From: Oryzias latipes
Taxonomy: Eukaryota > Chordata > Actinopteri > Beloniformes > Adrianichthyidae
Reading direction: 5' to 3'
Assembly (NCBI RefSeq): GCF_002234675.1
Contig: NC_019862.2
Location: 18,499,514-18,563,513, forward strand
DNA: 64,000 bases
The stretch's first letter is position 1, and each line of letters opens with the position of its first letter. The translations under genes and the position numbers were made by a program. Positions 17,489 to 62,600 of this stretch are shown one piece after another. The notes beneath the pieces were generated by a model that saw nothing but the letters and a program-made list of their open reading frames with translations, did not search any database and was not told the DNA's origin.

Positions 17489-18362
17489 GAGTGTATTCAG
17501 AATGGACACATCTGGTTCGCTTAAAGTGAACCAAAGTTCGGTTTCCCCGATAATCCGGAACAAATTTTCAGTCGAAATACACAAAAAATGGACCCTGTGG
17601 ACACTGAGTTTCCTCAGTCTGACTAGGCTCCATGCTCAGAGCAGAACAACTGGACCAAAATGACCACCATAGCCAGGCATTACGGGATGTAAACAGAAAG
17701 ATAGCAACCAATGAGCCACAGACAAATGTAAAGCAATAAGACACAGCAACTTATTGAAACTTGGTCGAATGAATGCAGGCTCATTTAAATAAATCGTAAC
17801 ATTTGCTTCTCACACTGTTTTCCTGACAATCTATATACCATAAACATTTATCAGCATACCTTCTTAGCCATCTTCTTGCTAGTAACCACCTTGCAGCATG
17901 CCTCCGCCATACCAAAGTAGTAAGTACCAAAGTATTCTTTCTCCCATTGCTTTTCCCTGACCTCGTAATTACTGGCCAATGACTGACGTGATCTTCAGTA
18001 ACGTGGTTTTGTTTACAAGCTTTTTTTTCACAGCAGAAATCGCTGGTTGAATTCAGTCTGAATACAGATCAAACGTAAGGTTCAGAACTCAATCCATATC
18101 AAATTAACCCTTGTGCTGTCTTAGATGACCCCACCCTTACATTGACGTGTTCTCCCTACCATGACAAAGGTGGATAAAGGTGGAAAGATTTCATGTAATC
18201 CATGGACACCAGTGGAGATCACAAATCATTGAAGAAAAAAGGTTCAGAGCACTGTCTAGTGGGTCTAGATGACCCAAATCCCAATGTTAAAGTGTCTAGG
18301 ATAGCACAAGGGTTACGCGGATTCCTTCCGTACCAATGGACTTTTCCAGTCTGAATACATCC
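17489..18362. mobile_element. PIF/Harbinger-like non-autonomous element
   Basis: The left end is GAGTGTATTCAGAATGG and the inverted right end is GGATGTATTCAGACTGG. Both are flanked by TAA (17486-17488 and 18363-18365), the usual Harbinger 3-bp target. There is no transposase. MITE copy 1 (18104-18316) is inserted inside, and an internal repeat of the end motif (CAGTCTGAATACAG) occurs near 18055. Confidence 0.7.
18104..18316 (+). mobile_element. TTAA MITE family, copy 1
   Basis: It begins TTAACCCTTGTGCTGTC and ends GATAGCACAAGGGTTA followed by C, so the right TTAA has one change. The terminal inverted repeat CCCTTGTGCTATC fits a piggyBac-type MITE. It is about 95% similar by eye to copies at 24972 and 32514. 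It is nested in the Harbinger-like element at 17489-18362. Confidence 0.85.
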
Positions 18363-23175: not shown

Positions 23176-23289
23176 TTAACCCTTGTGCTATCTTAGATGA
23201 CCCCACCCTTACATTGACGTGTTCTCCCTACCTAGGTGGATGAAGGTGGAAAGATTTCATGTAATCCATGAATACCAGTGAAGATCACA
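23176..23289 (+). mobile_element. TTAA MITE family, copy 2 (truncated)
   Basis: The left half is present from TTAACCCTTGTGCTATC through CATGTAATCCATGAATACCAG to AAGATCACAC. The sequence then changes abruptly into LINE sequence at about 23290. The right half of the MITE was not found downstream of the LINE, so it was lost by deletion or rearrangement. Confidence 0.8.
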
Positions 23290-23886
23290 CATCCACACGG
23301 CAATTATCCAAGCCGTCCTGACCACATCCATCACGGTCTGGTTTGGATCAGCAACTACACACGACAGGAACAGACTACAGAGAATCATCAGATCTGCTGA
23401 AAGGATTACTGGTTCCACTCTTCCCTACATTCAGGACCTGCACTGGTCAAGGGTCAGGAAGCGGAATGGCAGAATTGCAAAGGACACCTCTCATCCCGGA
23501 CATTGCCTTTTCAGCCTTCTCCCGTCAGGGCGGCGTTTTAGGACTATGCGCACCAAAACCACTCGCCACAAGGACAGCTTCTTCCCCCGAGCTGTCACTC
23601 TAATGAACTCCTGACTCCAGACCACTCAAGAACACTGAATAAAACCACAGAAACTGTGACACCAGAACTACTGTTGCATTTTTACTGTTGAACTTTTTAT
23701 TTTGTAATGTTTAAAAATACCTATATCTACCTCAGAGTACTTTCTTTTTTATTATTTATCCTCTCCTGTCTTAGACCTTTAAACTTTCTTCATATCTTTC
23801 TAGTTTGCACGAGAGCACAAGACACCAAAGCCAAATTCCTTGTACATGCACTATACTTGGCCAATAAAGCTGATTCTGATTCTGAT
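23290..23886 (+). mobile_element. 5'-truncated LINE (L2/CR1-like), 3' end
   Basis: The coding part (23290-23614) translates, with a small change of frame, into the C-terminal tail of fish L2/CR1-type reverse transcriptases. Visible landmarks are VWFGSATTHDRNRLQRIIR, then ERITGSTLPYIQDLH, then SHPGHCLFSLLPSGRRFR, then FFPRAVTLMNS and a stop at 23612-23614. A 3' UTR of about 270 bp follows and ends in TGGCCAATAAAGC with (TTCTGA)n-like repeats, the usual tail. The 5' end is truncated. Its left side cuts MITE copy 2 and its right side abuts a Tc1 fragment. Confidence 0.8.
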
Positions 23887-24971: not shown

Positions 24972-25184
24972 TTAACCCTTGTGCTAGCTTAGATGACCCC
25001 ACCCTTACATTGACGTGTTCTCTCTACCATGACAAAGGTGGATAAAGGTGGAAAGATTTCATGTAATCCATGGACACCAGTGAGGTTCACAAATCATTGA
25101 AGAAAAAAGGTTCAGCACACTGTCTAGTGGGTCTAGATGACCCAACTTCCAATGTTAAAGTGCCTAGGATAGCACAAGGGTTAA
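24972..25184 (+). mobile_element. TTAA MITE family, copy 3 (best preserved)
   Basis: It has intact TTAA on both sides (24972-24975 and 25181-25184), CCCTTGTGCTAGC at the left and GATAGCACAAGGG at the right. It is 213 bp long including both TTAAs. It is the best reference copy for the family in this window. No ORF is present, so it must have been moved by a transposase supplied elsewhere. Confidence 0.9.
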
Positions 25185-26034
25185 ATACAACCAAAAGCTG
25201 TTGAAAGTTTGTAAACTAAAGGTAAAGATTGTCTCCAAAACTCATCAAACTAATTCGGTACTGCTTCATTGTCTTCACAATTATTTTGTGAGATAACTGA
25301 GATATAATGAGATGTCATAGGAAAGATGTCCTTATAAAGCAAGAGGGCTTTCTATCATAAAGTAGTTTATATGTCTTGTTCTGGTTTTTGGTTCTTTGAT
25401 TAAAGCATTGTTTTGTTTTTTTTAGATGGGAGAATTCTGGTGATGTTACATACAGGTCTGAATGTCTCTTGTGGTGATACGTGGTGTGTGCCAATTAACC
25501 AAGAGAATAGCTTAAATAAAACAGGGAGCAGGGTTGAGACATGGGGGACCCCACAGATCAAGAGAATTTGGTCTGAGGTACAGTTATTGATATCATACTT
25601 CCTGTCTTTACGACATGACTTAAACTATTCAAGGGCTGCACTGCAGATGCATTCTCAGTCCTCTAGTCTCTGCAGTGGGATCATAGTCAACTGAGTCAAA
25701 ACCAGCACTGAGATCGATCAAAACCTAAAACAGAGTTTCCCTACCTCTGTATTTAAATGAATATAATTTTTTTCACCCATTTATTTTCGGCTGTTTAGTG
25801 GCGGCGCTTAAAACACAACTCTAAAACTCTCAAAACAATTGCTAAGTAGGAGATATTTATTGAGCTTGTGATAAACTTTATCAAGGACTCAAACAAATGG
25901 CAAGTTTGGAGTGAGCCTTCTTTTTTTTTCAGTACTGCGGCATCAAGACTGCTCTTAATTAGGAGTGGTTTGAAGAGCCTTACCTTAGGAAATGTCTCAG
26001 ACTGCTGCAGGTCCTTGACCATATGAGGGAATTG
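25185..26034. other. Gene-free stretch, possible old repeat at 25413-25740
   Basis: The segment 25413-25740 contains phrases such as GGGGGACCCCACAGATCAAGAG and GCACTGAGATCGATCAAAA that remind me of a dispersed fish repeat, but I cannot name the family or set its ends. A 93-codon ORF (25413-25694) covers most of it without a recognisable domain. Confidence 0.4.
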
Positions 26035-27139
26035 CCATAGCAAAGCAAAACTGAAGATGAGATCTCGTTTCTGTCACATTTACGTCTCCTAGACATAAAT
26101 GAGAACTGTTTGAGACTAAACTGCTTTTCTCATTCTTCTCAAACATTTCTCCTGAGAAATAAGTCTCACAGTGAGCACTGTTTGAGATCTCAAAATTCTC
26201 TCACAACTGTCTCTTCTCCAGATCTCAATTGAGAGAAAAATGAGCCATATTATGTTGCGCTCAAGTATGTCTCAATTTGATATCCTTACTTCAAATTCCT
26301 ATCTCAGTTATGTCTCAGTGAAAGACATCAATGGTTCTGTCTCTCGTTGCTCAATAATTTAGATCTTGTTTTAGCCTTTTTTTTATTGTCTCAGCAAAAA
26401 GAAAAATTAGAGTAGTACAAGCCCTAAAATGAGTCTCATGATGACACCATTACAGTTCATCTCTAGAAAATAATATTTTTTATTTTATTTATGTTCAACT
26501 TAAAAAAGTTGTTTATTGCTTACATATTTATATAACTTAATTACAATTTCAAGAAAAAAAAGTTAAATCATTAAGACGGTCATGTCCTCAAAAGACATAT
26601 TTTTGAAACTTTTTAAAAAACATGAAATTTCAAGACAACGTTGCAGTGTCGATTTAATAAACTCTTTTTTTGACTGCTTAGATAAACATAAATGAACAAG
26701 AATGTATGTTGGGTTAATGATGCTAGGTTTAGTTAAACACAAACACACGCATGCACTGGCACACATGCATACACGCACAAGTGCATATACGCACACTTAT
26801 ATGTTGGTGGGTATAAAACATTTAACACATTGATGTCTGAACTAAATAAAGGACATTTGGGATCATATTTGGATCACCTTAAAGTGAACAAAAAATAGAT
26901 TTTACATTTGAAACAAACAAATAAAATACACAAATAAAAATAATCAAATTAATAAATCAACTTTAGGGCGGTACAGATTTATGGGGTTCAGTTTGAGTTA
27001 ATTTATCTTTGTCTTTAAAAATCACCCTTCATGCAGCCTTACAAGCTGAAAATATTTTCTGTTTTCTTGATTTTAGTCTGCATCATATTGAACAAACAGA
27101 AGCCTGGAGTAACCCGATTTGAATTTTAAACTGTATCAC

Positions 27140-27370
27140 AGCCTCACTTGACACAGATTTCTGATTGGCTGATCACGGTGGGAGGGAAAACTCTGTGGTT
27201 GACGTCACCAACGGGCCGGAATCTGCAAGCGGGAGAAGTGCAGAGAACGAGAGACTTTTGACGACCGTTTGTCGTATTTTTTCTTCGTTTTAACAATCCG
27301 TGGGATGAATCTCCAACATTTTTTTTGCTTGTCTGGAAAAGATTCAAGTAAAATCTTTGAAGTTTGCACG
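27140..27370 (+). promoter_or_regulatory. CpG-rich promoter-like region and first non-coding exon of the relic gene
   Basis: This segment is far richer in CG dinucleotides than its surroundings. It has an inverted CCAAT box (ATTGG, 27164-27168) and a full CRE palindrome TGACGTCA (27200-27207). A presumed transcribed part runs to CACG at 27370, followed by an excellent splice donor GTAAGT (27371-27376). There is no TATA box at a convincing distance. The layout, with CCAAT and CRE about 30 bp apart, a short untranslated exon and a long first intron to the acceptor at 28117, matches an expressed vertebrate gene or transposon promoter. Activity is not shown. Confidence 0.55.
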
Positions 27371-28116
27371 GTAAGTTTGCGATTTCTTCCCTCCAACTCT
27401 GAACTCAGTTGAATGCTAAAGGTGTTTTAAGCTAGCTCCGCCAGTAATGCAGACGTCTGGGCTACTCGCGGTGGCTTTGGCTGTATAAGTAATTATTACT
27501 TTTTACAAAGGTTTACTTGTGCTTTTTGTAATAAAAAATAGAGACATTGAAGAGTTATTTGCAGTGCAGAGTTTACAGAATGAGCCTCGATATTTTTCCA
27601 AACGCGTGAGTGCTCAGTAACTGTTGGAAGACATTTTGCTCTTCAGTTAAGGGTCTGCAGGGTTCGTCCCATCACAGTGTGACGACACCACAGTCCATTA
27701 TTCCAAACTTCAAAATGTGCAGTTTCACTGTATGTTCAATTTTTACGCTGTAAAAAGCTTTTATCTTGTTTAAAAGATCATCTTGCAGACGTTTGGCCTG
27801 GCATGCCATCTTTTGAAACTGGTTATGGACATGTGTTTAAAGTAAAGTCATCATTAACTGCTCACATGTCTAGAAAGCATAATCTGAAAATGTAAGTATG
27901 CATATTAGGGAAACATGTTCTCAGCCCTCTGTCAGTGGTGGAGATGTTTAGAGAGCACAGATGTAGCTAAGGCTAATGCTCAACTAACAAATGTCAACAC
28001 TGATATGTACGAGGATTTTAGTGAATCATAAATCATATTTAAAAACCTTTCCAGATCTTACTTTGTGCTGTATAAAATGTGTGTACATGATGTTTTTTTC
28101 CCCTCTCTGATTCAAG

Positions 28117-29176
28117 GTGATCTAAATACACGTGAAAATGAGTGAATCAGAACCCATGTTCCTCCACACTGCCATTATGGAGGTCCTACCAGAGCCACAA
28201 AAGACATCCTGGAAGAACACTTGCAGTCCATTGGAATAAATGGAGTTGTATGAGGATCTACGATTCATAGAAGAGGCTGACTTGCTGCCAGCTTTGAGAC
28301 CTGTTCAAGCCCGGAAACGTCTTGCTCTTTGGAAATTGAAATGTGAGTCTCAAACATTACAAATGAGTTTTTGTAATGCACAGAAGTGGATATGAATATG
28401 AATGGGTAACACACTGAGAGTACAGTGTAAACTTAATACACTTATACTGTTTTTGTTTTTTGTTGCAGACCAAACGCCAGAGAACAGCACATCATCATCT
28501 GTTGAGACCTCACCAACACAATCATCATCACTTTTGTTATAGTCACCGAGGAGTTCGTCATCCACATCTTCCAGAAGCCGAGGACTGTACATACATTGAC
28601 TGGGAGGACAGCTTTGAAATTCCATGGAGTAAGTTTTCTGAGGAATTTGTGCAGTCTTTGGAAAGAGACCTGGCCCAAGACTAAGGAAGGAAATGGTTTG
28701 CACTCTTGTTGCAGAAATGATGAAAGCAAGACGTTTTTCCAAACTCTAAAAGGCTGCAGATGATGCGGGGAGAGCAGAGTGGCTGCTCAGAAGAGATGAG
28801 ATGTTAAAGAGATGCTCTTTCTTCTGCTCTGCTACTTTGAGGAGGATGCCATGTTCTTGTAGAAGATGCAGACGAGGTCCAGCTGCAGCAGGTGCCGTTG
28901 ACTCCAACTGTTATTGTATGTGGTAAGTAAAGTTTCCAGTGTTAAATTATTCTAAAGGTTTTGTCTTTGTACACTGTACATGAGTGACATGTTTACTTAA
29001 TCCATTGTTCTGTCTTTAGGACAGTCTTGCTTTTCCCCAAGGAGGTTCATGCTCATTTGGAACCGCTCCATCGTACACAACAACATTGCAGCACTGTGCC
29101 TGATGTTCAGAAGCTACTTCTGCTTTAACAGTCATTATCCAACTGAGCTGGCTTCAACCCTGGAGTTTCTGCAAAG
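28117..29176 (+). pseudogene. SAMD3-like family gene relic (three recognisable exons)
   Basis: Exon A (28117-28342) follows a pyrimidine-rich acceptor, starts at ATG 28138 and encodes ILEEHLQSIGINGV, then after a frameshift YEDLRFIEEADLLPALRPVQ, a SAM-like segment; donor GTGAGT. Exon B (28469-28922) gives QTPENSTSSSVETSPTQSSS, an in-frame TAG, a second frameshift, DWEDSFEIPWSKFSEE, then LRKEMVCTLVAEMMKAR; then, after an apparent internal deletion, RLQMMRGEQSGCSEE and VQLQQVPLTPTVIVCG; donor GTAAGT. Exon C (29020-29176) is clean: QSCFSPRRFML ... ALCLMFRSYFCFNSHYP ... STLEFLQR. I recall this order in the multicopy fish family labelled SAM-domain-containing protein 3-like, function unknown. Introns are kept, so it is not a processed copy. 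It is disabled. Confidence 0.7.
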
Positions 29177-29277
29177 GTACATATTTATGAGTGCTGTCAT
29201 GCGATTCATTTTTGGGTGTGGTTAGTTAATCATGACCTGCAGTTAATTATTCTTATTAATCTTGTATTAATCTAACT

Positions 29278-29467
29278 CAGGGCTGCTCATCCCTGGTCCT
29301 TGAGATCTACCAGCCTGCCTGATTTCCAGCTGATTACCTGGACCAGGTGTGTTCATTCAATCAGTATGTGGAGACATCTGGTTGAGCTGATCAACAGCTA
29401 GCAGGGCTTGGGGATCTGGAAAACAGTCAGGGTGATGGATCCCAAGGACCAGGAATGAGCAGCCCTG
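29278..29467. mobile_element. Palindromic hAT-type MITE in an intron of the relic gene
   Basis: The left terminus CAGGGCTGCTCATCCCTGG is matched by the inverted right terminus CAGGGCTGCTCATTCCTGG, differing by one base, and both continue into TCCTTG. The 190-bp element has no coding capacity. The target duplication is not clean. The CAGGG start fits hAT elements. Confidence 0.75.
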
Positions 29468-30187
29468 GCTAACCTAAAATGTAGCTTTGGAAATCCTTAT
29501 TTTGGGGTAATTTGATTTAGATAGTAAGATTGTGTCACATTAAAAGAAATAAAATACAATTTAAAGGGTGGCTTTATGAAGTTTTCCAAGTATAACAGAC
29601 TTTTTTCCAATCTTTACTTTTGTACCACTAAGGGATAATTCTTCAGTCTCAAACAGAACAAAGACCTAAGCCAAAGTGCTCTAATTTAAAAAACTAATGG
29701 AAATATTCTGAACAATCCAAAAAATATTGACCACAAAATTCTTAATGATACCATAATATATATTCGTTGAAATATCTTATTCCACAGTTTGCTGTCTGAC
29801 ACGATCAGCCCTCAGCGTCCCAATTAAGACATGGGTATTATTTTTCCCTTGTTAAGAGCCAACCATGCAAAATGTGACTTGATCATTTCTTAAATGTTTG
29901 ATCTGGACTGTATCATGAAAAATGAAATGAAACAGATTTGAACCTTATTTGTTAAATAGTTAATGCCCATAGAATGCTGCATTTCAATTCTTTTAACTGA
30001 AACAGATGTCCTCTCAAGCGACGTGTGGCTGCTTTTAGGGATGACAGAAACGTAATCTTATGGTAGCATTATGCAGCTGCTTTTATAAAACTACAGTTTG
30101 CTTCTAGCTTGAAGTGTTATCTTTGTTTGTTATGTGCGGTCTATTATCAATTTGTTCATGCCAGATTTTAATGTTCTTGTCTTACAG

Positions 30188-30303
30188 CTTATGTCCTGAG
30201 ATGTGCCACTCTACCTGGTTGGGAACAAATTGAAGAGGCCAAGCTCAAGAAAGCCGTTGTCAACAAATGTAGGGCAGAGCAGGTTCTAAGGCCACTGCTA
30301 TGA
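30188..30303 (+). other. Possible terminal exon of the relic gene
   Basis: A good acceptor (CTTGTCTTACAG ending at 30187) precedes 38 open codons (counted with the G at 30187) that run to TGA at 30301-30303: AYVLRCATLPGWEQ, then IEEAKLKKAVVNKCRAEQV. A polyadenylation signal AATAAA follows at 30639-30644. The phase does not join the preceding recognised exon (29020-29176), so an exon may be missing, or this may belong to another transcript. I do not recognise the peptide. Confidence 0.4.
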
Positions 30304-30690
30304 TCTACAGTATGCGGACTGGTTTCTCTTCCATCTTTTTTCTTATTTTTTATCTTAATTTGGTTCTCAAATTGGTCCATGGATTTGGTAGGCTGCAAGT
30401 TTAGGAGAATGTTTTTATCAGGTACTTTTTTATGTGGTTACATAATCTTGTTTTTTTCCTTGTACCTCAGCAGTGATGTCAGTGTGTTTGTTGTTTAAAA
30501 TATGGAAGTTTTCTTTACCATCATGTCAGCCACATTTAGTACGCCACAGTTCATGTACTTAATGCATTTAATATTTTAAAAAGTGTTTAATACTGCTACC
30601 ACAATTCAAATGCTGTACTGATGATGGTGCTGCCCAAATAAAGTGTAAAGCATTTACATTTCTAGTATTGTTTTTACTGTTACTGTATAT

Positions 30691-30898
30691 CAGTGGTCTC
30701 CCATCCTGGTCCTTGAAGGTCACTGTTATGGATGTTTTAGCTGTTTTCCTGCTCCAACAGATCTGCTGCAGTGGTTGAATTGCCTCCTCAAGTTCTGCAG
30801 GAGGTGGTTAATCACCTGTTGATTCACATCTGGGGAGCAAAGAAACATCTAAACCCTACTGGATGGTGGCCCTGAGGACCAGGATTGGCTACCACTGC
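30691..30898. mobile_element. hAT-type MITE downstream of the relic gene
   Basis: The left end CAGTGGTCTCCCATCCTGG and the inverted right end CAGTGGTAGCCAATCCTGG form terminal inverted repeats, both followed by TCCT. It is 208 bp, with no ORF. It is distinct in sequence from the MITE at 29278 but has the same general design. The target duplication is unclear. Confidence 0.75.
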
Positions 30899-31160
30899 TA
30901 TAAAAATAACTTCTCTTTTCTTTCTCAAATACATCTCAAATATCATTCTCATTAACGGCTTTGGTAAGACATTTAAGAGAAATGATTAAGACATGAAAGA
31001 GACATCAGACAGACAACGATGAGATCTCTTTTAGGACTCATTCTTCTCAGATTTGTCTCATGAACGTCTTAGGTTCGTCTCTCCCACTTCTTAATTATTG
31101 CTCTAACAGTTGTCTCAACTCAACCTCATTTGTCTCAGTGATGTCTTTTCTCATTATAGC

Positions 31161-31201
31161 TTAACTCTTGCTCCTAAGGGACCCTTAGGAGCAAGAGTTA
31201 A
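31161..31201. repeat. Perfect 20-bp hairpin with 1-nt centre near the right end of the candidate transposon
   Basis: The arms 31161-31180 and 31182-31201 are exact reverse complements around a single A at 31181; the arm is TTAACTCTTGCTCCTAAGGG. Perfect near-palindromes decay quickly, so either it is young or it is kept for a reason. It sits among the GTCTC/GAGAC motifs, 97 bp from the CTATGG end. Confidence 0.9.
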
Positions 31202-31502
31202 AAAGCAAATGATCACAGAATGATACGAATATGAGACGCTCAAACTGATCTCAAGAGACGAGATCAAGCAACATATGAGCAACAGATTTTTCCTATGGGT
31301 GTGCTAACTGCTCAACACAGGTTTTAGACTTACCTGGATGGATGATACCATGATCAAGCATGTGAGGCTCTGTCATTGCACTCTGACTGTTCTGCACCTT
31401 GAAAATTCCCCAAATGTGTGAATCTCAACTGCGCAATTTGTGGTAGTGGGTGACTCCGTTTGTGCTCTCCCGTGTTTTTTATTTTATTTCTTTTTAAGAA
31501 GC

Positions 31503-32271: not shown

Positions 32272-33320
32272 CACATGTCAAACTCAACACCTGCAGGCTG
32301 AACATGGCCTGTGATATTATCATGTTAGACCCACGTGATAATATCTGATCACTTTTAAAGCTGACCCACATGTGCAACTAATGCACAGCAAGTCCCACAA
32401 TGCACTGTCAACACATTTGAAAGCCCAAAAGAGTGTCTAAGTCTTTGAAGATAAACAAATTACCAACACGCAAGTCATTTTACTAACGAAAACTTCAAAA
32501 GTAAGATGATCATTTAACCCTTGTGCTATCTTAGATGACCCCACCCTTACATTGATGTGTTCTCCCTTTCATGACAAAGGTAGATTAAGGTGGAAAGATT
32601 TCATGTAATCTATGGACACCAGTGAGGTTCACAAATCATTGAAGAAAAAAGGTTCAGAGCACTGTCTAGTGGGTCTAGATGACCCACTAGACAGTGGAAA
32701 AGGGGTGTCAAAGGGGTGCCTAGGATAGCACAAGGGTTAATTCTGAAGACTACCTGGGCTCAAAGCTTAAGTCCTAAAATTGATGAACTTGTTTATAAGA
32801 TGACATGCCAAGGATCTAATTCGGAGCAGCAAAATTACATTTAATGCACTTTTTTTAGTGCTGCTGCAAGAAATATCAATTTTAATAAAATAGTAGATTT
32901 TGTCTCTAGTTTTCCACAAAAAAAAGTAGTCAGTTAAAAGCGAATCCAGAAAAGTTGAAGAAAAAGCTTCAGAGAAAAAAATGCATTGGATTTTCCTTGT
33001 ATTTAATGTGAAATGATGTTGTTTTCAGGTGCAAACTGTTTTATAAGCTTTGACAGTTCTAGTTTAAGGAGCAATGATTGTTGATCAGCGGGAACATTTT
33101 TAATTGGACAAGACAATGGACATTTCTCAAAAAATAGTGAAAGCACCTAATTTTTTATGACTAATATTGCTAAGTTTTGCATGCTTTGTCAATGTTAGTT
33201 GAATTCAGACTACAAGGTCATACCCAAGTTCTTATTAAACATTGAATCAGTCCGGTGCTGATCTTGTACAATGTTTTTATTTTATTTTGGCTAATAGTGT
33301 ATTTGAGTTTGACACCCCTT
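32272..33320. mobile_element. hAT-type element of the GTGTCAAACTCAA group
   Basis: The left end contains ATGTCAAACTCAACACCTGC and the right end, inverted, reads AGGGGTGTCAAACTCAAATAC. Both are typical hAT/Charlie subtermini. No transposase is visible. The flanks do not give a clean 8-bp duplication. It contains MITE copy 4 at 32514-32740. The left boundary is approximate because the first bases have diverged. Confidence 0.55.
32514..32740 (+). mobile_element. TTAA MITE family, copy 4, with a local inverted duplication
   Basis: TTAA is intact on both sides (32514-32517, 32737-32740), with CCCTTGTGCTATC termini. Unlike the sister copies, the right part carries a perfect 15-bp-arm hairpin: 32661-32675 is repeated in inverse at 32681-32695 around TAGAT. 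The next bases, GGAAAAGGGGTGTCAAAGGGGTG, replace the usual CCAATGTTAAAGTG. Confidence 0.9.
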
Positions 33321-34037: not shown

Positions 34038-34256
34038 AGTAACCCTTGTGCTATCCTAGGCACTAGGCACTTTAATGTTGGGAGTTGGGTCATCTAGACC
34101 CACTAGACAGTGCTCTGAACCTTTTTTCTTTAATGATTTGTGAACCTCACTGGTGTCCATGGATTACATGAAATCTTTCCTCCTTTATCCACCTTTGTCA
34201 TGGCAGGGAGAACACGTCAATGTAAGGGTGGGTTCATCTAAGATAGCACAAAGGTC
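34038..34256 (-). mobile_element. TTAA MITE family, copy 5 (inverted orientation)
   Basis: The low-coordinate end is AACCCTTGTGCTATCCTAGG, the right terminus of the family, and the other end is AGATAGCACAAAGG, so it lies opposite to copies 1-4. The TTAA flanks have decayed (GTAA and an altered right side). It carries a small tandem duplication, GGCACTAGGCAC, absent from sister copies. Confidence 0.85.
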
Positions 34257-34279
34257 TAAGGAAACGTGTAACCCTAATC

Positions 34280-44437: not shown

Positions 44438-46629
44438 ACAGTAAAATGTATTTTAGTCTCAATTATTTTTGATCAAATATATTAACCTATTTAGCCATTT
44501 TAAACCTGCCAAGACAGTATGTCAGATGCAAAAAAAAAGAACTTTTTTATAAACTAAATGAATTTCACACACAATGACAATGAAAGAGACACAGTCATCT
44601 CCGTCACCTAACTGCTCCAAATGAAACAAGATCCAATGTACACAAAGTAACACAAACATGACCACTGGTGCAATGGTGTGGAAAAACCCAACTATACTTT
44701 CCATAGCATCTATCTTTTATAATTTGAACATCTTTATATGGCGGTTTTACTGAAAAGTTAACAGCATTCTAAGAAACTGAATGAATTTGGTTTGTTTAAC
44801 AAGTAAATGTGGTTAGCAGTTAAGCATATTCAACTAAAAACTTATATTGTTTAAAAAAACAACATTAAGTGTGTTCAGAAAAACACATATGTAAACACTT
44901 GCATGTATCTGACTTGTCTTGAAGTTCCAGATCATGTTTTACAATTTGGAAACATTTCTAGCGTTGACCAACTGAACCACTTACAAAGAGAACGAGGTCC
45001 ATTTAATTGTAAGAATTGGCTGGTGAAATATTTAAATGTTTTTCTGTTTTGCAAAGCAAACTATATTAAAGTTTTTTTCCTTTAAAACAAAGACATGAGT
45101 TTGTGACAAACTTATTTAACAAGATACCTGCCAGCAAGATGGGGGAGAGGGCCTTCATTACAGACCAAGCAGTGGGTATCAGTGATCTTTCCCCCAGGTG
45201 TGTGTGTGTGTGGGTAGCCATAAGAGCAATGAGGCACCCTTCTGCGCAGCCGGTTTGAGGAAAGATTATCATGACAAATTGGATAAACATCTCGTCTGTG
45301 ACAGGATGCTGATGGAGGGTCCGCCTGCCCACACACACACTCGCACTCACACATCTAGGACGGTTGGTTTGTTTAGTCACAGACGAACCGTGCGTATTTG
45401 CGTTTGTGTGAACCCAGCCTAAAGGCAGGTAACAACAGGTCTTCCTCCGCAAACAGAGAATGCAGGTTCTCAGGTGTATCTGCCAGCTCTGCCTCAAATA
45501 CTTCTTGCGTGAAGTGTTACTCAACGAGGAGTTAAAACTGACCTCACCTGTGTTTCCATCTTACATAAGTTTACTTTAAATTTCTCACGCTAGCATAGTA
45601 AATATGTTTTAAAAAAGTGTAAATACCATGAAAATGGTTTAAGATGCAGCTAATAATGATGTTTTGTTGAACTTTCTTAAATCTACAAAAACACATTAGC
45701 TTGTTAAGCTTTACTGGTTATCAGAAATAGGGTACTGGGAGTGCTGTAATAGGTCAGGTTTTGGGCCACCGTCAACTTCTTTCCAATATAATTTCCAGGG
45801 ACTAAAGTCTCATCTGCAGCCTGGCTTGTTAAACTACTCTGAGTAGGTTTGAGTTGCATTTGCCAAAACTACACCTTCTGAGACTAAGCTATATGTAAAG
45901 GTCTTTCTGCAGTGTCATCAGCATAAACTGCGAAAATCCTGTGTTGATTGAAAATATGCAAAGCAAGGATCCCGACTCCAAAGAAGTGCAATCAAAATAA
46001 GTATAAATTATGAAGCTAGATACACAGAGAGTTTAGCATTTCCACTTTGATCATTTCTAATGACCCTTGATAAGTTCAAGGATTTTACATGTTGTCTTTA
46101 CAACTCATCTCTTTTAATCATTCCATTTCCACTCAGCTCCACGGGGTTCATGCTGTCATATTTGCAGGATTTTCAAGGCCAGTTTTGTCTTAATTAAACT
46201 AACACTAAATCTAAAGTTCAAACTGATGACATGGACCCAGTGAGATGCACTGAAACACTTCAGAGTATGTTTATGTTTTTTTTTTTTTGTGTTGGGGTGG
46301 CACTGAGAGGTCACAGGCTGTGCAGTTTGCCTTGCCACCCTTGACTCTTTGAATTTAGGACCGTTATCCACAGAGGTTTTAAGTTAGATCAAACATTACA
46401 TCTAACATTTCAGAACATTTTAACAAGTTAGACCATCCAACCAGCAGGGTGTTCCCCTTAAAATTGAAAAGCTAGGAGGGAATAAAAACTTTCAGGGTCA
46501 AATCTTTCTTAATCACCTTTTTCTAAGATCAACTGTTAAGGTTTTAGTCACTAAGTTAAAAAAATATGTATTGTAGTAAACTCTTCTTTAGCAACCAAAA
46601 TTTCCCTGTACACAAAATATCAACAACAC
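44438..46629. other. Gene-free stretch
   Basis: It contains CA/TG patches at 45198-45215 and 45330-45350. The 152-codon minus-strand ORF at 45066-45524 overlaps ORFs on the other strand and reads CA repeats as His-Thr. The segments around 45110-45310 look non-repetitive. No exon was recognised. Confidence 0.45.
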
Positions 46630-46844
46630 CAGGGGGGTATTCCAGGAAGCATGTTTAAACTACCCTGACTAACCTTGAATTCCGGCTGAAATCCGCCTGA
46701 ACTTGCTTACTCGGGGTATGTCGGTTCCAAAAGACCGGATATGAGTTGGCGTAATTATGCTCGACTTGGTAACCCTGGGTTAATGCACGTGTGCGGCATG
46801 TACATAAAGACATTCTCAATGGATCGCCGATTTACGGAGTCACC

Positions 46845-46945
46845 ATGGAAACGGGTGGAGAAAAAAAGAGAGCGCGACACTTCAGTGAGACGGAGTTGGA
46901 GATTTAAATGACGGCGTATGAAGATTATACGTCCATCAAGAAGTA
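46845..46945 (+). pseudogene. MYB/SANT-like DNA-binding domain relic, copy 1
   Basis: The frame from ATG 46845 reads METGGEKKRARHFSETELEI, then a TAA in place of a Leu codon, then MTAYEDYTSIKK and another stop. The pattern KRAR.FSETELEIL..AYE.Y matches the start of the MYB/SANT-like DNA-binding proteins encoded by Harbinger-type transposons. It is inactive because of in-frame stops. Confidence 0.65.
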
Positions 46946-47499
46946 ATACGGCTGCATTAGCAAAAGAAAGAGTTTCTGTTTGTAGTAGAAGAACAGACAA
47001 AGTAAACACACGAGTTTCTGATCTTATTTCCATTTTCCTTGTGACGCATATGTATATAACTTAAATGAATTACTTCTATTGGTAACAAGTAATTGAGTTA
47101 AATTTATTCAACCTCATTTCTATAAAACTCAGTAATTTTTTGTACAACTCAAATTTACGTTTTATCTAACTAAATGTCACATTACTCCAATTCAATTTAT
47201 CTTTTTTCCATCTTAATTATGATTCTTGAACTCTCATGTGTCTAAGATTGAGCCGGCAGATATGCTCATTTTTTTGACAATTAAAAGGACGAGGAAAAAG
47301 AATTCTCTGTCATTATGATTACATACAAAGAAGGTAGGAGTGCTATATAAACTCATCATCCTCTCCTTCACACTCACTCATGGTGCAGAGACGTAGGCAT
47401 AGTAGGACAAAGTAACTCGGCAAAACACGGTAAAACACAGTAAAATAGCTAAACAACTAAACACATTTGGTCAAAAACCTACGGTGGCCCAGAAGGGTC

Positions 47500-47860
47500 A
47501 CAACACAACACATTAACTTTATACACAACACACTAACTTTACACACAACACATTAACTTTACACACAACACATTAACTTTATACACAACAAACTAACTTT
47601 ACACACAACAAACTAACTTTACACACAACACATTAACTTAACACACAACACAATAACTCACAACACAACACAATAGCTCACAACACAACACATTAACTCA
47701 CAACACAACACATTAACTCACAACACAACATAATAACTCACAACACAACACATTAACTCACAACACAACACATTAACTCACAACACAACACATTAACTCA
47801 TGGCCCAGAAGGGTCACAACACAACACATTAACTTACCTCACAACACATTAACTCACAAC
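47500..47860. repeat. Minisatellite of about 21-bp CACAACACATTAACT units
   Basis: About 17 imperfect units vary between ACTTTACA, ACTTAACA and ACTCACAA endings. The phrase GGCCCAGAAGGGTCACAACA occurs at both the start (47486) and near the end (47802). It is absent from the equivalent place in the second copy of the element, so it arose after the copies split. Confidence 0.9.
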
Positions 47861-47935
47861 GGAAGTAAAGCAGCAATTGAAGTGCTTTTATTCTGAAATT
47901 TCTACTGGGCTGAGCAGCTAACTACCTAACAGAAA

Positions 47936-48249
47936 GTAATGTCACAGTGAGCTGTGGAGGGAGCATGTTATTGCTACAAGAGAAGCTAGCAGCAGTGTTG
48001 CAAGAAACTTTGTCTTTACTACGGTTCTCCTTCCTCTAAACACACACAATATGAACGCACACTCCTCCCTCCGCTCTGACACCCCCCTCTGTCGCTGCAC
48101 GCGCGCTCCTCTCCTCTCCTTTTTTCCGCTCAGTCTTCTCACACAGGCACGTGCAGTCCCCAATACACACGCACACACAGGACGGAGCGGAAAAAAGGAG
48201 AGGAGAGGAGCGCGCGTGCAGCTCCCTCCACAGCTCACTGTGACATTAC
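47936..48249. repeat. Nested palindromic element with 29- and 36-bp perfect arms
   Basis: The outer arms 47936-47964 and 48221-48249 are exact inverse repeats of 29 bp starting GTAATGTCACAGTG. Inner arms 48096-48131 and 48185-48220 are exact over 36 bp. On the right the inner and outer arms adjoin; on the left they are separated by 131 bp. The ORFs at 47942-48272 on both strands arise from this palindrome. Confidence 0.9.
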
Positions 48250-48463
48250 CTCAAACTTATCGTGGGAGCTAGCATAACCTGCTTTCTGGAATACCCCCCG
48301 GAGAATTTCTTTGTGTTGATATTTTGTGACCCATCTAAAAAACAACAGTAATTCTAACTAGAAATAGAACAATACCTTACCCAGAGAAGCCTTTAATCAC
48401 CAATTCACCGCTTTTTTCCCCTCAAACCTTGTGCTGTATGCTGTTTGTGTGGAACTAAGTAAG

Positions 48464-51789: not shown

Positions 51790-51844
51790 GTGTCTAGATG
51801 ACCCAACTCCCAATGATAAAGTGCCTAGGATAGCACAAGGGTTA
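51790..51844 (+). mobile_element. TTAA MITE family, copy 6 (right end only)
   Basis: Only the right 55 bp remains: GTCTAGATGACCCAACTCCC, then GTGCCTAGGATAGCACAAGGGTTA followed by C. The left part is replaced by unrelated sequence ending GTTTG. Confidence 0.85.
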
Positions 51845-51923
51845 CGTCCTTTTATGGATCTGTGCTGCTCTGTGTATAACCAGTGGAAGGAGGATTGGCA
51901 ACAACATGTCCTATACACTGGCA

Positions 51924-56944: not shown

Positions 56945-58057
56945 GATTGATTGAAATAAACAATAAACTACCACTACTACACTACCACCTATTTGTGCAT
57001 TTATTACAAGGTTTTATCTGGTGCTACTGAATTTGACATTAGCTTATTCTCTTATTTACATGATTAAATATATAATGTTTAGAAGTGTTTATACTCCTTA
57101 AACCCTTAAAGCCGTTATCCTGCAAAGGTTCAGTGCAGCAGTAAATTTTAATAGCAGAACAGGAGATTTCTTCTCAAAATACCTTTGATCCATTTTTTTT
57201 CTAATCTGTGTGTGTGTGTGGCCCTAAGTGTGATAAAGGCTCTTTTTGTTTTTTATCTTCAATCACACAGTGATGAACAATGTAGGGTTTCAGTTTCTTG
57301 CCTAAGGACAGTTCAACTAATGGAGAGTTTAAACCAGAAAAAATTGGAGCTGCTTTCTTTATTGGCTTGACTGCTAATTCTTTAATATAATTTGTTCCAT
57401 ACTCACAAATGTTTTGGGGGTTTTTTTCTTCACATTTTTGGTATCCAAAGCCATGTTTGCCTCACTTTCTAGAAACTAAATGCAGCAGAAAGTTTCAAAA
57501 ATACTAAAAACTGCAAACGTTTTTAGATTTTTTCAGCCTGTAAAATTGCAAACTTTAATACATTAACATCTTTTGGAGACTATATCCCTCTTAACTGGTC
57601 AAAAACACTTTTAACTGTAACTGACAGGCTAATATGCTTCAATGTTTGTTTTCTACTAAGTGTTACAAAAGATTTGAAGGATCTGAGACATCGGTGTGAT
57701 TACAGTAAACAGAGCTGAAGTGCTGCTCTTTTCTGCTGTCTGTGACATCAGAAGTCAACTGAAACCTAATGCCTCAGAGAGACAGTCTTTTTTTTTTTGT
57801 CCAAAGATTGGTAAAAAAAAAATGGTCATGTTTTATCATCTTGATTTTTGTCAAGTTTGTTCAAAAACGAACATGGGTTCAGTCTGACAAATGCAGAACA
57901 CTGCTTCTTTTATCTATCAATCACATTATTCATAGAGCAACTTTCATCAGCATGCTGTAGAACGCAAGGTGCTTGACATATATTTAGGTTAAAACCATAA
58001 AAAGTCATAAAACACAATAGATCAAAAACAACAACAACAACAAAAGATGAACAAAAA
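56945..58057. other. Gene-free stretch
   Basis: A short TG run at 57209-57220 and A/T runs are present. No exon, TIR or SINE was recognised. Confidence 0.5.
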
Positions 58058-58274
58058 CTGGGGGTTATTCCAGAAGGCCCTGTTAAACTACCCTGACTTT
58101 AACCCTGAACTCTGGCTGAAATCCGCCTGAACTTGCTTACTCTGGGTATGTCTGTTTCTAAAGACCGGATATGAATTAGCGTAATTACGCTCGACTTGGT
58201 AACCCTGGGTTAATGCGCGTGCACGGCAAGTTCATAAAGACATTCTCAATGGATCGACGATGTCCAGAGTCGCC

Positions 58275-58436
58275 TCGGAAACGTGTGGAGAGAAAAAGAG
58301 AGCGCTATACTTCAGTGAGACGGAGTCTAAGATTTTAATGACGGCGTATGAAGATTATAAGACCATCAAAAAAGTAATACAGCTGCATCAGCAAAAGAAA
58401 AAGTTTCTGCTTGGAGAAAAAGAACGGACAGAGTAA
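58275..58436 (+). pseudogene. MYB/SANT-like DNA-binding domain relic, copy 2
   Basis: This frame stays open for 53 codons to TAA 58434-58436: ETCGEKKRALYFSETESKIL, then [19 protein letters not shown] and [13 protein letters not shown]. It matches copy 1 and, at its first 40 residues, the MYB/SANT-like domain of Harbinger-type elements (FSETELEIL..AYE.YK.II). After this the family usually continues with K.NTAAAAKER, where copy 2 is shifted out of frame. It lacks the start Met that copy 1 keeps. Confidence 0.6.
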
Positions 58437-58473
58437 ACGCAAGAGTTTCTTATCTTGTTTCCAATTACATTGT

Positions 58474-58661
<188 letters not shown>

Positions 58662-59670
58662 ACTTATAACAATTACATGAATTGATTCAATTGGTAACAA
58701 GTAACTGAGTTAAATTTATTCAACCTAATTTCTTGTCTATCCAACTCAATAGTTGTTTATACAACTCAAATTTACATGTTCATCTTACTAAATGTCATAT
58801 TACTCCAATTCAATTAAATGTTTTTCCATATTAATTTATTGAACTTCTTGAACTCTCATATGTCTTAGATAGAGGCTGCAGATTTTCTTTTATATAAACT
58901 TAAAATAAATGATACAATGTGGATTTACAATATATACTTGCGTTTAATTATTATAACTCTGACTGTAACTTCAGTACTTACACTATAGCATTGCACTAGG
59001 GTTTTTAAATAATCTCATCCTCTCCCTACCTCTCACTCATGGTGCAGAAAGAATTAAACTTAGAATTAAATTTAACAGGGTAAAATAAACAATACACAGT
59101 AAAACAGCTACAACTAAACATATTTAGACAAAAACCTATTCTTGTAACCAAATCCGTCCAGACAGGCAAAGGGAATGGTATCCCACAATTCCTTGCGCTG
59201 TCGATCTAACAATCTAACAGCAGCACCAAAGTTACACCTACTTAATTGAATTAATTTGAATGAAAGTAAAATAACTGTCAGAAAACTATGTGTTATTTTT
59301 AAGTTGACTGAACTCAAAAAAAATATTTATCTTAACTGAAGCAAATAATTAAGTTAGATTAATGTAAAAAAGTGTATCTCTACAACATCCATACGTGGTC
59401 TTATCACCCTTTCACGGTGGAAAAAAGTATAATCTGAGCTTCTTCATCCACTAAATCATCTTCAAATGGACACGCAATGCTGCTTCACCTCTCACCCTCA
59501 ACTATACCTGCTCCAGACCAGGTTATGTTCAGAGCATGAGTTGCTATGGGAACTAAGCAGACCCTGAAACATACCTCTGTTTTTGGAACCAAAAGCTGAG
59601 GTTATCCGCTTCCTTAGCCTCAAACTTACCGTGGTAACTAGCATAACCTGCTTTTTGGAATAACCCCCAG

Positions 59671-62600
59671 GAAATGCTGTGGCTGAGGAGGCACTGTCCA
59701 GATTAAAAGATAAAAATGCTACAATTTTTACAAATGATAAACAAGAACAACCATACAATACTTCAAAGCCAAATAAATAAATTTGGCTGAATAAATGCTT
59801 AAGCTAAAAAAAAATGTGTTTTTAATGTACATTTAAAAAAGAGATGCAGCAACTTTACTTAGGTAATCAAAGTCCAAATAAAACTCTTTGCTCAAGAGTT
59901 GCTATTGTCAAACAATCAACCTTAATCAATATTTTAAAAGAAACTCACCTCTCTTCAGTGATAAAAGTGAAAAAGGTAAACGTATTTCACATAATTTCAC
60001 TTTTGATCGGGTTCATAAAAATAGTTTCCATGCTATGTCTCCCCATAGCATAACCTGACTATGTGGAGTTTGTTGTGGTCAATCTTAAAAAGCATATGCA
60101 GTCTGTTACAACCAACTCTGTTAAACACAGCATGAAGATTTTTTAATTACTTTACAAACATTATTGTTACATATGCAAATATGTGTCAGAAAGTGGAGGC
60201 ATAGGACCCAATAATGCAAGAGATCAAGCTAGGTGGGAGAAACACTACATAAACTTGAACAGGGCCAAAACCCATGGAAAACCAAAAGGGAGACAAAGCA
60301 GAGCTCTGAAATCCAGACACTTAAATACACTGGGGGTTCATTAACACAAATCAAGACAGCTGTGGATGATTTACAACCTAAATCTGCTGTGACTGACAAG
60401 GAAAACACAACATGGCAAAAACCAAGAAACATCCCAAAATCCAAGTGCAGACTTCTCACAACCGTGGCTTTTAGTTTAGTTTACTTGAGTGTTTGTACTC
60501 ATGTTTAATTTGAATCTTGTACAAGTTGCTGCTTCTCTTTGCCTCCATAGCATATGAACACATACGTGAAAGACAGTGGAGACACAGAAATGTTCAATTT
60601 GGTTACAAATTTTGTTTTTGTGTTCTTTTACAAACAACTTTACTTAGCAGATCACTCCACCACAGAGTGGTAAAAATGGGAAGTTCTGTTTTTCCTCATA
60701 AAGCCATTTATAGCCAAAAAATAACCTAAAAAATTAAAGTTGTTCACTCTGCAGTTTCTTTAACTGATGTTACCTGTAAATTTGTTAAAAAGCCATGTGA
60801 TTTCAAACATCACAGATTTTTGTCATATTAACACATAATGAAACACTTATTTACCTTAGGAACTCTTAAAAGCCTTGATTTTTTTTTCTAAAAAGTGACA
60901 GAGGGCCTTATAATTTGAAGCTCCTCATAAATGGATTATTTTCTGGTTTTCCTCACCAAGGTTATGAGGATCTTACAATTTTGAGATCTACACGGCAATC
61001 TGTCAAAATGTCAGAATGTCAAAAATGTTGCAATATTGCAAGCTAACGTGTAGCGATATCTGACTTTTTTTTACTTATTACTAACAAGGATGGGAGTTAG
61101 TGTAGTCCCTGTAACGTTTGTTTTAGCAGTATTATCCTGATTTTTAGGAGTCGAAAACAAGGTTGGGAGTTACTGGTATTGTCAATACACTAACATGTAG
61201 CATGCCACAGAAAAGTTCTGGAATTATATTGAATGCAGAGTATAAAGTCTGACTAACTAATGGACTCATCTCTGATTCTTTTGTCTGACTCAATACACCC
61301 TGTGGTTCGGTGCGCCTTAAGTAAAAAAATTGATAATTCATTGTCGTGCGACCTATTGAACGGAAAATACGGCACGTCTCCTAAACTTTAGCAACCACTT
61401 CCGAAAGTATAGTAGGCTATACACTTATTCTTTATTAGCTTTGAATAAAGACAGGATTAATTAGAAGTTGTTTTAAATTTAGCAGTTGCTTAACTTTTTT
61501 TCTATGGCAACCTCACACAAAAAGCTCAAATGATGAAAACGTAGTTAGAAAAAAAAAGTGTTTTTAAGCTTTTTTACAAGATCAAGATAATCTTTTAGTG
61601 AATAACAGGATATGACAAAATAGAAATCGCTCAAGTGGAATTCAAAAAATGCAGCGTCATCAGTTGCCCACCAACATCAGCAAGCAGAATCCAGGTTAAA
61701 CTACACTAAACTGTGTGCATGTTTGAAAAGGTTGAGGGCTTTCGTGCTTTTCCATTGAGAACAATGACTTTGTTTATGTTTTTGACAGCTTGACCTTCTT
61801 CCCTTTTACGCACACGCATGTGCACACACACAGGGGATGGTTCCTGAATGGGGTTGGAGGTTAGCAGCCGGTTACACGTGACAAGTCATGGTTAATTCCA
61901 GCAACACAAAGGATGCACTGGGCGCCGGCAAATTCTTTTTCTAAAACTCTCACACATCGGATCATCCCATCACTCCACTGGTTCATTGACTGGACCGAAA
62001 ACAATTACAGAAGTATAAAAGTCCTCTGCACTTTAAGTCACAAAAGCTTCAGCTAAATCTGCAAACAATTAGTTTTAAATCATCTTAGATTTTACAAGTG
62101 GATGTGGATTAGCTATTATTCTGCGCTGTCTTGATTTTCTAAACACTACTAACTGATTGCCTGTTCTGTGATGATGCATTTTTATTATTAAATTATGTAG
62201 AACACACTACAAACCAAGGGGACCACTAAACATATTTCTGATATTTTTATGTTACACTAATGTCACCGTGGGTTCTTCTGGGTAAACTTGATTCATGTCA
62301 GAATAATGCTCCATATACATGCACAGTTGAGACTTTATTAGCTCAGATGCATAACAAAGGGTGAATTTAAGATTACAAGCACTTGTTCCAAAATTAAAAT
62401 GTTTCTTTATAGACATGTAAAGAAACCTAAAACAAGAAAAAAAAATAGCAATTGGAACATAAAGAAAGAAGAGCTCTAGAATTACAGTCTGTGTTAAGGA
62501 TAGATGCTTTGAACTAAATCTAAAATATTGTATTATACTACAAATATGTTGATATGTGCTGAGATTTAGTCTTGATTTTGAACCTATTGAGTTTTTTAGA

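Follow-up and report, generated by a model that had tools for sequence, protein, structure and literature searches.

A non-autonomous medaka DNA transposon, probably of CACTA/EnSpm type, that carries the relic of a SAMD3-like gene

Positions 26035-31298 of the window (the whole 64,000-nucleotide stretch of DNA that was analysed) are a single copy of a ~5.3 kb DNA transposon of medaka (Oryzias latipes). With a probability of roughly 0.83, the unit is a non-autonomous CACTA/EnSpm-type element, resembling the animal 'TRC' elements, that has two-gene relatives and spread recently in trans. In these relatives a DDE transposase is encoded first and a SAM-domain protein directly behind it, in one direction. 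The window copy has kept both ends and a SAMD3-like relic and has lost nearly the whole transposase; its movement would have depended on proteins made elsewhere. The label SAMD3-like is carried over from the initial annotation of this DNA. The features are collected in Table 1.

Table 1. Features of the transposon copy, in window positions
Feature	Position	Strand	Basis
Left target-site duplication TG, 2 bp	26033..26034		Window flanks; 16/16 other two-ended copies duplicated exactly
Left terminal inverted repeat (C)CCATAGCAAA	26035..26044	+	20/20 retrieved copies read C followed by CCATAGCAAAGC
Left subterminal zone, 9 GTCTC/GAGAC	26035..26460	+	Motif count; 40/40 scored genomic copies full-length at 98-100%
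Transposase N-terminus relic, C2H2 zinc-finger part (P0055 residues 10-142)	27535..27955	+	tblastn; remainder of transposase missing
SAMD3-like relic, SAM-domain exon to C-terminal exon	28138..29186	+	Frame shifts, in-frame stop in first exon
hAT-like MITE, partly exon in the P0020 model	29278..29468		Ends by eye; P0020 match 29279-29344
Last exon of NCBI model LOC105356804 (P0020)	30186..30230	+	100% over 15 aa
Second hAT-like MITE	30691..30897		Ends by eye
Right subterminal zone, 7 GTCTC/GAGAC	30980..31298	+	Motif count; 40/40 scored genomic copies full-length at 97-100%
TTAA-bounded 41-bp palindrome inside right zone	31161..31201		Sequence
Right terminal inverted repeat TTTCCTATGGG (CCCATAGGAAA)	31289..31299	-	Copy alignments and duplication survey
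Right target-site duplication TG, 2 bp	31300..31301		Window flanks; copy survey

The boundaries first proposed, 26035 and 31298, are correct to within one base. The match starts at 26035 in 20/20 retrieved copies (in two of these it extends another three bases outward); the right end CTATGG is likewise present in 16 of the 20. One further base belongs to the unit on each side (C...G), and in two-ended copies the ends CCCATAG and CTATGGG are bordered by a 2-bp duplication. CCCATAG is the left end of all 20 retrieved copies; read against the aligned copies and flanks, the window copy itself lacks one left terminal C, which leaves TG/TG as its duplication. The outer CCATAG/CTATGG pair and the inner GATCTCGTYTCT pair singled out earlier are present, but on their own they do not rise above chance level: 6 of 60 random region pairs yield an inverted match as good as the best one here.

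The medaka genome holds 70 left-end and 59 right-end candidates, and all 80 matches scored (40 of each) are full-length at 97-100% identity. The expectation that the ends occur as pairs at similar spacing is borne out: for 31 of the 40 left ends listed, the listed right ends include a same-strand partner no more than 15 kb away, and 26 of these 31 pairs span 5041-5273 bp. Both ends are found in 16/20 retrieved copies, with lengths of 5.18-5.29 kb. Each of these 16 is flanked by an exact 2-bp target duplication (3 bp in 0/16), at varied sites comprising TA, CT, TG, GA, AT, CA, TT, TC and AA. Copies are spread across 22 contigs, and for 3 of the 17 insertions compared uninterrupted related sequence marks an empty site. 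Constant spacing, 2-bp duplications and empty related sites uphold the earlier idea that both ends delimit a single mobile unit. The best reading is a recent spread of the family through cut-and-paste transposition that left 2-bp duplications. The matches listed from a transposase search of the medaka genome (130 candidates, 88 scored) include none at the 51 listed copies and reveal no autonomous element with the same ends.

The 16 GTCTC or GAGAC motifs noted in the two end zones lie far above chance. Against expectations derived from the window outside the unit, 9 are observed versus 0.69 in the left zone (Poisson P 5e-8), 7 versus 0.52 in the right zone (P 1e-6) and 9 versus 7.3 in the interior. 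Other subterminal motifs are GAGATC (5 left, 4 right) and TCTCA (17 and 8). Mere chance as the origin of the motif clusters and the short inverted ends would agree with inverted ends that by themselves lie within chance level; the motif excess and the genomic copies refute this and make it the least credible of all explanations. Hardly more credible is the multiplication of a host gene family through segmental duplications, with unrelated repeats on either side. The SAMD3-like gene is indeed multicopy, with 249 candidates in medaka, but the exact boundaries and the target duplications in 16/16 copies refute such an origin, and the 22 contigs and empty sites also count against it.

The initial annotation saw no known transposase in this copy. 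Loss of nearly the whole gene stands, complete absence does not, as the N-terminal relic remains (by tblastn, joint E 2e-10 with the unit and E 7e-8 with the window). The SAMD3-like gene relic and polyadenylation signal described earlier are both in place: four stretches of the NCBI medaka gene model LOC105356804 (P0020) match at 95-100%, and AATAAA lies at 30637. Of the nested elements, the first MITE (29275-29468) and the second (30690-30895) are each whole or partial in 18/20 retrieved copies, and in the 40 right-zone copies the palindrome matches its own inverted sequence.

The transposase of the relatives comprises N-terminal C2H2 zinc fingers and a DDE core with a C-C/H-H motif, a core absent from the window copy. 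Among relatives covering each site, D196 (19/19), D286 (26/28) and E538 (21/21) are conserved, as are C307 and C310 (28/29 each), H513 (20/21) and H518 (21/21); these are the putative catalytic residues. The core is predicted to fold like RAG1/Transib, from a structural model of low confidence (pLDDT 57.9) similar to RAG1, RAGL and Transib; a PDB profile search with the transposase gave no match. Pfam Transposase_21 (PF02992, tnp2) matches 10 of 30 relatives' transposases at E<=0.1 (best 4.8e-5). The three transposases with listed scores reach 15.7-17.6 bits, below the 28.6-bit cut-off; the database itself annotates P0192 with PF02992.21.

In the relatives the zinc-finger transposase is followed by the SAMD3-like gene on the same strand, in medaka with the SAMD3-like frame starting no more than 60 nt from the transposase stop. 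Both parts lie within one protein in 22 of 200 homologous proteins. SAMD3-like homologues occur across many fishes, and a single frog protein is also among them. CACTG ends are seen in two medaka relatives of the two-gene kind. Intact SAMD3-like loci without GTCTC-rich flanks had been named in advance as evidence against the idea, and such loci exist: C10 and C20, the best-preserved SAMD3-like loci of medaka, have no such flanks. They belong to a different family with CACTG ends and subterminal repeats of its own, so the idea itself is not refuted.

Since the transposase core of the window family is lost, its placement relies on what the two relic genes are related to, on the ends and on the duplication. 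Transib duplicates 5 bp, hAT 8 bp and piggyBac TTAA, and all three are rejected by the varied 2-bp sites duplicated in 16/16 copies. Mirage elements do make 2-bp duplications, and with the family's own core missing a Mirage-like or other superfamily of this kind might be considered; it is improbable, as both relics match the gene-pair type of the CACTG-ended medaka family and CCC ends with a 2-bp duplication are known from animal CACTA elements in the available text of PMC1636069. Short inverted repeats starting with CCC (animal) or CAC, 2-bp duplications and short motifs repeated in both subterminal zones are all found here, and the DDE core with its C-C and H-H motif in the relatives; CCC ends, duplication and subterminal repeats together fit the animal CACTA ('TRC') type.

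The predicted core fold and the conserved acids with a C-C/H-H pair recall RAG1/RAG2, ProtoRAG and Transib, as does, for RAG, a second protein beside the nuclease. These systems duplicate 5 bp, whereas the medaka family duplicates 2 bp and its relatives pair the transposase with a SAM-domain protein. According to the parts of PMC1636069 at hand, SmTRC1 of Schistosoma mansoni has a CCC core at its ends, a tnp2-related transposase and a 2-bp duplication in 7/14 copies, and a Danio transposase is reported too. The medaka family shares the CCC ends and 2-bp duplication, but for the second proteins SmTRC-PrA/PrB that text records no relatives detectable in other animals, while the medaka-type second gene is SAMD3-like and widespread in fishes. 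Plant CACTA elements (En/Spm of maize, Tgmt* of soybean) combine a tnp2 transposase with a partner that binds family-specific short motifs, repeated in the outermost few hundred bp on either side, and their defective copies are moved in trans (PMC2613891, in excerpt). Two element proteins and family-specific motifs near both ends are common to the medaka type, as movement of defective copies in trans would be; plant ends start with CACTA, however, and Tgmt* duplicates 3 bp (PMC2613891, in excerpt). EnSpm-N6_DR (Repbase, zebrafish) is likewise a non-autonomous EnSpm-class element in a fish; its description in the accessible text of PMC3485254, 346 bp and zebrafish-specific, sets it apart.

The SAMD3-like gene had been thought to be either cargo or part of a transposition machine. 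The second is better supported because relatives pair the gene with a transposase, although such pairing at every medaka locus is not what was found. The rather unlikely alternative is a passenger, a captured host gene that gives no help in transposition. Among the matches listed, many of them fragments or distant relatives, 61 of 66 medaka transposase loci (in most cases at ~30-40% identity with the query) lack a SAMD3-like neighbour within 20 kb. Beyond the window family, 12 of the 18 SAMD3-like loci lack a listed transposase over that distance; the two can thus occur apart. A same-strand transposase adjoins four of the 18, transposase pieces lie at one more (C17), and another has a 32% match ~5 kb off on the opposite strand. 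Transposase and SAMD3-like identities correlate weakly (rho 0.27, P 0.067; 13 elements, 50 pairs). The relic is also dead in the window copy and the family amplified nonetheless, but a dead copy can borrow proteins from other copies. Against a passenger stand the order and strand of the two genes, kept across gene models of several deep fish clades, and long homologous protein models in the carp-like, perch-like, cod and elephant-fish lineages. The SAMD3-like gene is probably not chance cargo; it seems to represent the second gene of those fish transposons whose transposase has a predicted RAG1 fold.

As second gene, the SAMD3-like protein may bind the GTCTC-type subterminal repeats and help the transposase assemble, by analogy with TNPA in plants, and its SAM domain might aid oligomer formation. 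Tentatively, at somewhat less than even odds, it could fill the long-missing role of TNPA in vertebrate CACTA elements, as a SAM-domain coat on family-specific subterminal repeats, here of GTCTC type, and as a loader of the RAG1-fold transposase. It would then be a candidate animal counterpart of TNPA, of which the SmTRC1 authors, in the available text, report none outside their species (PMC1636069). If this is true, a large uncharacterised fish 'gene family' would supply one of the two proteins of a transposition machine, in parallel to the pairing of RAG1, which rearranges human antibody genes, with RAG2, and it would move among distantly related fishes and a frog. This multicopy protein family of fishes would gain a concrete role, which would explain its recurrence in fish annotations. 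As two-gene elements exist in a laboratory fish, the role of the partner protein is accessible to testing.

The medaka genome (G000; 734 Mb in 25 contigs, with the window at G000:C4:18499514-18563513) was searched with both end zones of the candidate transposon and with its interior. The left zone gave 70 genomic candidates, and all 40 scored match its full 426 bases at 98-100% identity; the right zone gave 59, with 40 of 40 scored being full length at 97-100%; and the interior gave 60, of which 40 were scored. The listed matches to the three represent at least 51 distinct loci. Pairing at similar spacing, the check suggested in the initial annotation, was seen: for 31 of the 40 left ends listed, a right end is also listed less than 15 kb away and in the same orientation, and 26 of these spans measure 5041-5273 bp (the rest being 1576, 5511, 6132, 6532 and 10558 bp). 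Nine left ends have no listed partner. Six of these were fetched, and three (L024, L026 and L027) have a right end at ~5.2-5.3 kb, while none was seen within the stretch fetched for L009, L017 and L028. Twenty of the 40 scored left-end copies were fetched for end analysis; 14 match positions 26035-31299 in a single piece at 95-99.7%, and L013 and L024 match them in pieces. The two ends almost certainly delimit one mobile unit.

The short inverted ends CCATAG and CTATGG, taken alone, do not exceed chance expectation. A C precedes CCATAG in 20 of 20 fetched copies and a G follows CTATGG in all 16 that have a right end, so that the true ends are CCCATAGcAAA and CCCATAGgAAA. Outside these extended ends lies an exact 2-bp target duplication in 16 of 16 copies and a 3-bp one in none (L009, L012, L017 and L028, with no intact right end in the fetched stretch, were excluded). 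The window copy has lost one C, leaving TG on both sides. When the joined flanks of 17 insertions were compared with available sequence, those of L013, L014 and L026 matched empty related sites, uninterrupted across the junction (82-85%).

A recount of the 16 GTCTC/GAGAC motifs first noticed in the end zones gives nine on the left and seven on the right, against 0.69 and 0.52 expected. GAGATC (5 left, 4 right), TCTCA (17, 8) and AGATCTC (5, 2) are enriched as well, and the actual subterminal motif is therefore probably longer or composite. The right zone also holds a 41-bp palindrome bounded by TTAA, common to the listed right-end copies, an arm of which looks by eye like the termini of the TTAACCCTTGTGCT repeats found in other parts of the window.

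Two relics lie on the same strand between the ends. The initial annotation saw no known transposase in this copy; an N-terminal zinc-finger relic of one is present, shown neither there nor in the NCBI model, and ties the unit to a transposase family. A search of the unit for the remainder of the transposase gave no match. The NCBI protein LOC105356804 (P0020) matches the spliced gene relic in four stretches at 95-100%. A hAT-like MITE supplies one exon of that gene model, and the annotated 175-aa protein is thus a chimera of transposon pieces.

Features of the unit and other repeats in the window
Feature	Position	Strand	Remarks
Left end zone	26035-26460		
Transposase N-terminal zinc-finger relic	27535-27955		matches residues 10-142 of transposase P0055; joint E 2e-10
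SAMD3-like relic	28138-29186		
hAT-like MITE	29278-29468		
Right end zone	30980-31298		
Palindrome in right zone	31161-31201		
Repeat starting TTAACCCTTGTGCT	18104-18315, 23176-23293, 24972-25183, 32510-32725, 34063-34262, 51792-51846		83-98% alike in pieces; probably a TTAA-type MITE family
Two related ~1.65-kb repeats	46612-48306, 58040-59675		inverted ends resembling GGTATTCCAG / CTGGAATACC; most pieces 80-88% alike
Candidate LINE reverse transcriptase relic	25680-25735	-	by eye, LIDLSAGFDSVD

Fourteen copies, including that of the window, differ pairwise by 0.9% on average (0.3-1.4%), with the older L024, L026 and L027 (3.3% average difference from the rest) set aside, and the spread of the family is therefore recent. 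Across the 18 fetched copies holding relics, identity to the SAMD3-like relic of the window is 98-100% in the first exon and 96-100% in the last, and the transposase relic is 97-100% identical in 14 and 88-92% in four older copies. The same 18 of 20 fetched copies contain two nested MITEs, whole or partial, and the older copy L043 has the same in-frame stop. The family would thus have multiplied after the death of its genes, and its proteins would therefore have come from elsewhere.

A protein search with the SAMD3-like relic returned 39 homologues, and every named one is from a fish. Several bear N-terminal stretches unlike SAMD3-like proteins, and a search with one such stretch led to the transposase family. 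In three protein searches taken together, both parts occur in 22 of 200 proteins, which is no frequency since the searches were targeted, some transposase parts are of 35-70 residues and several models come from one species. The transposase stands first in 21 of the 22, and in P0011 the order is scrambled. Models from Triplophysa and Misgurnus (P0098-P0100) join 500-700 transposase residues to the SAMD3-like part, and in Mugil cephalus the two have neighbouring locus numbers on contigs of equal length. In medaka, an open transposase frame of 877 aa at C20:3.68 Mb is followed, in another frame, by a SAMD3-like frame whose ATGs lie 8 and 56 nt past the transposase stop. The arrangement recurs at C10:23.25 Mb with the transposase interrupted, and in more decayed form at C20:0.49 Mb. 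The C10 and C20:3.68 copies are ~99% alike across most of their length, with ends CACTGTAAAAA, duplications TG and AA (read by eye) and a 44-bp tandem array close to the right end. They have no DNA match in common with the window family; ends and subterminal repeats therefore vary between families, as they do in plant CACTA elements according to the available text of PMC2613891. A copy of the window family on C10 is interrupted at L029:1512-6779, where 5.27 kb have been inserted and the two parts overlap by ~15 bp.

Other observations speak against a fixed pairing. Co-occurrence was assessed among the SAMD3-like and transposase matches listed for medaka, where 45 of 63 SAMD3-like loci belong to the window family. 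Four of the 18 others (C10, C20 twice and C21) adjoin a listed transposase on the same strand, the C17 locus has transposase pieces immediately upstream, one has a 32% transposase ~5 kb away on the opposite strand, and 12 have none within 20 kb among the matches listed (e.g., C1:15001436-15020222, C9:29778701-29781561, C5:21459567-21461134 and C24:9722412-9725268). These last are either decayed elements or genes apart from a transposon. Conversely, the matches listed place no SAMD3-like sequence within 20 kb of 61 of 66 transposase loci; almost all of these 61 share only ~30-50% identity with the query. Decay, divergence and the scope of the matches listed may explain much of the separation, and the two genes can evidently lie apart. 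Many long open transposase frames of ~500-930 codons with ~35% identity to transposase P0071 have no listed SAMD3-like match nearby (e.g., C6:10104024-10112695, C1:25412311-25426581 and C3:28270234); they represent another lineage of the same transposase class. The frog protein P0111 (Leptobrachium leishanense, 528 aa, SAMD3-like) is 74-77% identical to its best fish matches, nearer than many copies inside one fish species, reflecting either transfer or contamination.

The animal CACTA elements termed TRC are marked by CCC ends, a 2-bp duplication and a tnp2-related transposase, and their authors reported no TNPA-like protein common to animals (PMC1636069). The window family is accordingly classed as a non-autonomous member of this known kind, very probably CACTA/EnSpm. 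The literature search found no description of a SAMD3-like partner gene of such elements, and the pairing may already be on record in Repbase. A pufferfish BAC paper names 'similar to sterile alpha motif domain containing 3' among its genes (PMC2996927). We put at roughly 85% the probability that the SAMD3-like gene is a regular component of one branch of CACTA/EnSpm-type elements. A putative requirement for it in transposition is slightly favored, and binding of its product to the GTCTC-type repeats is a tentative suggestion.
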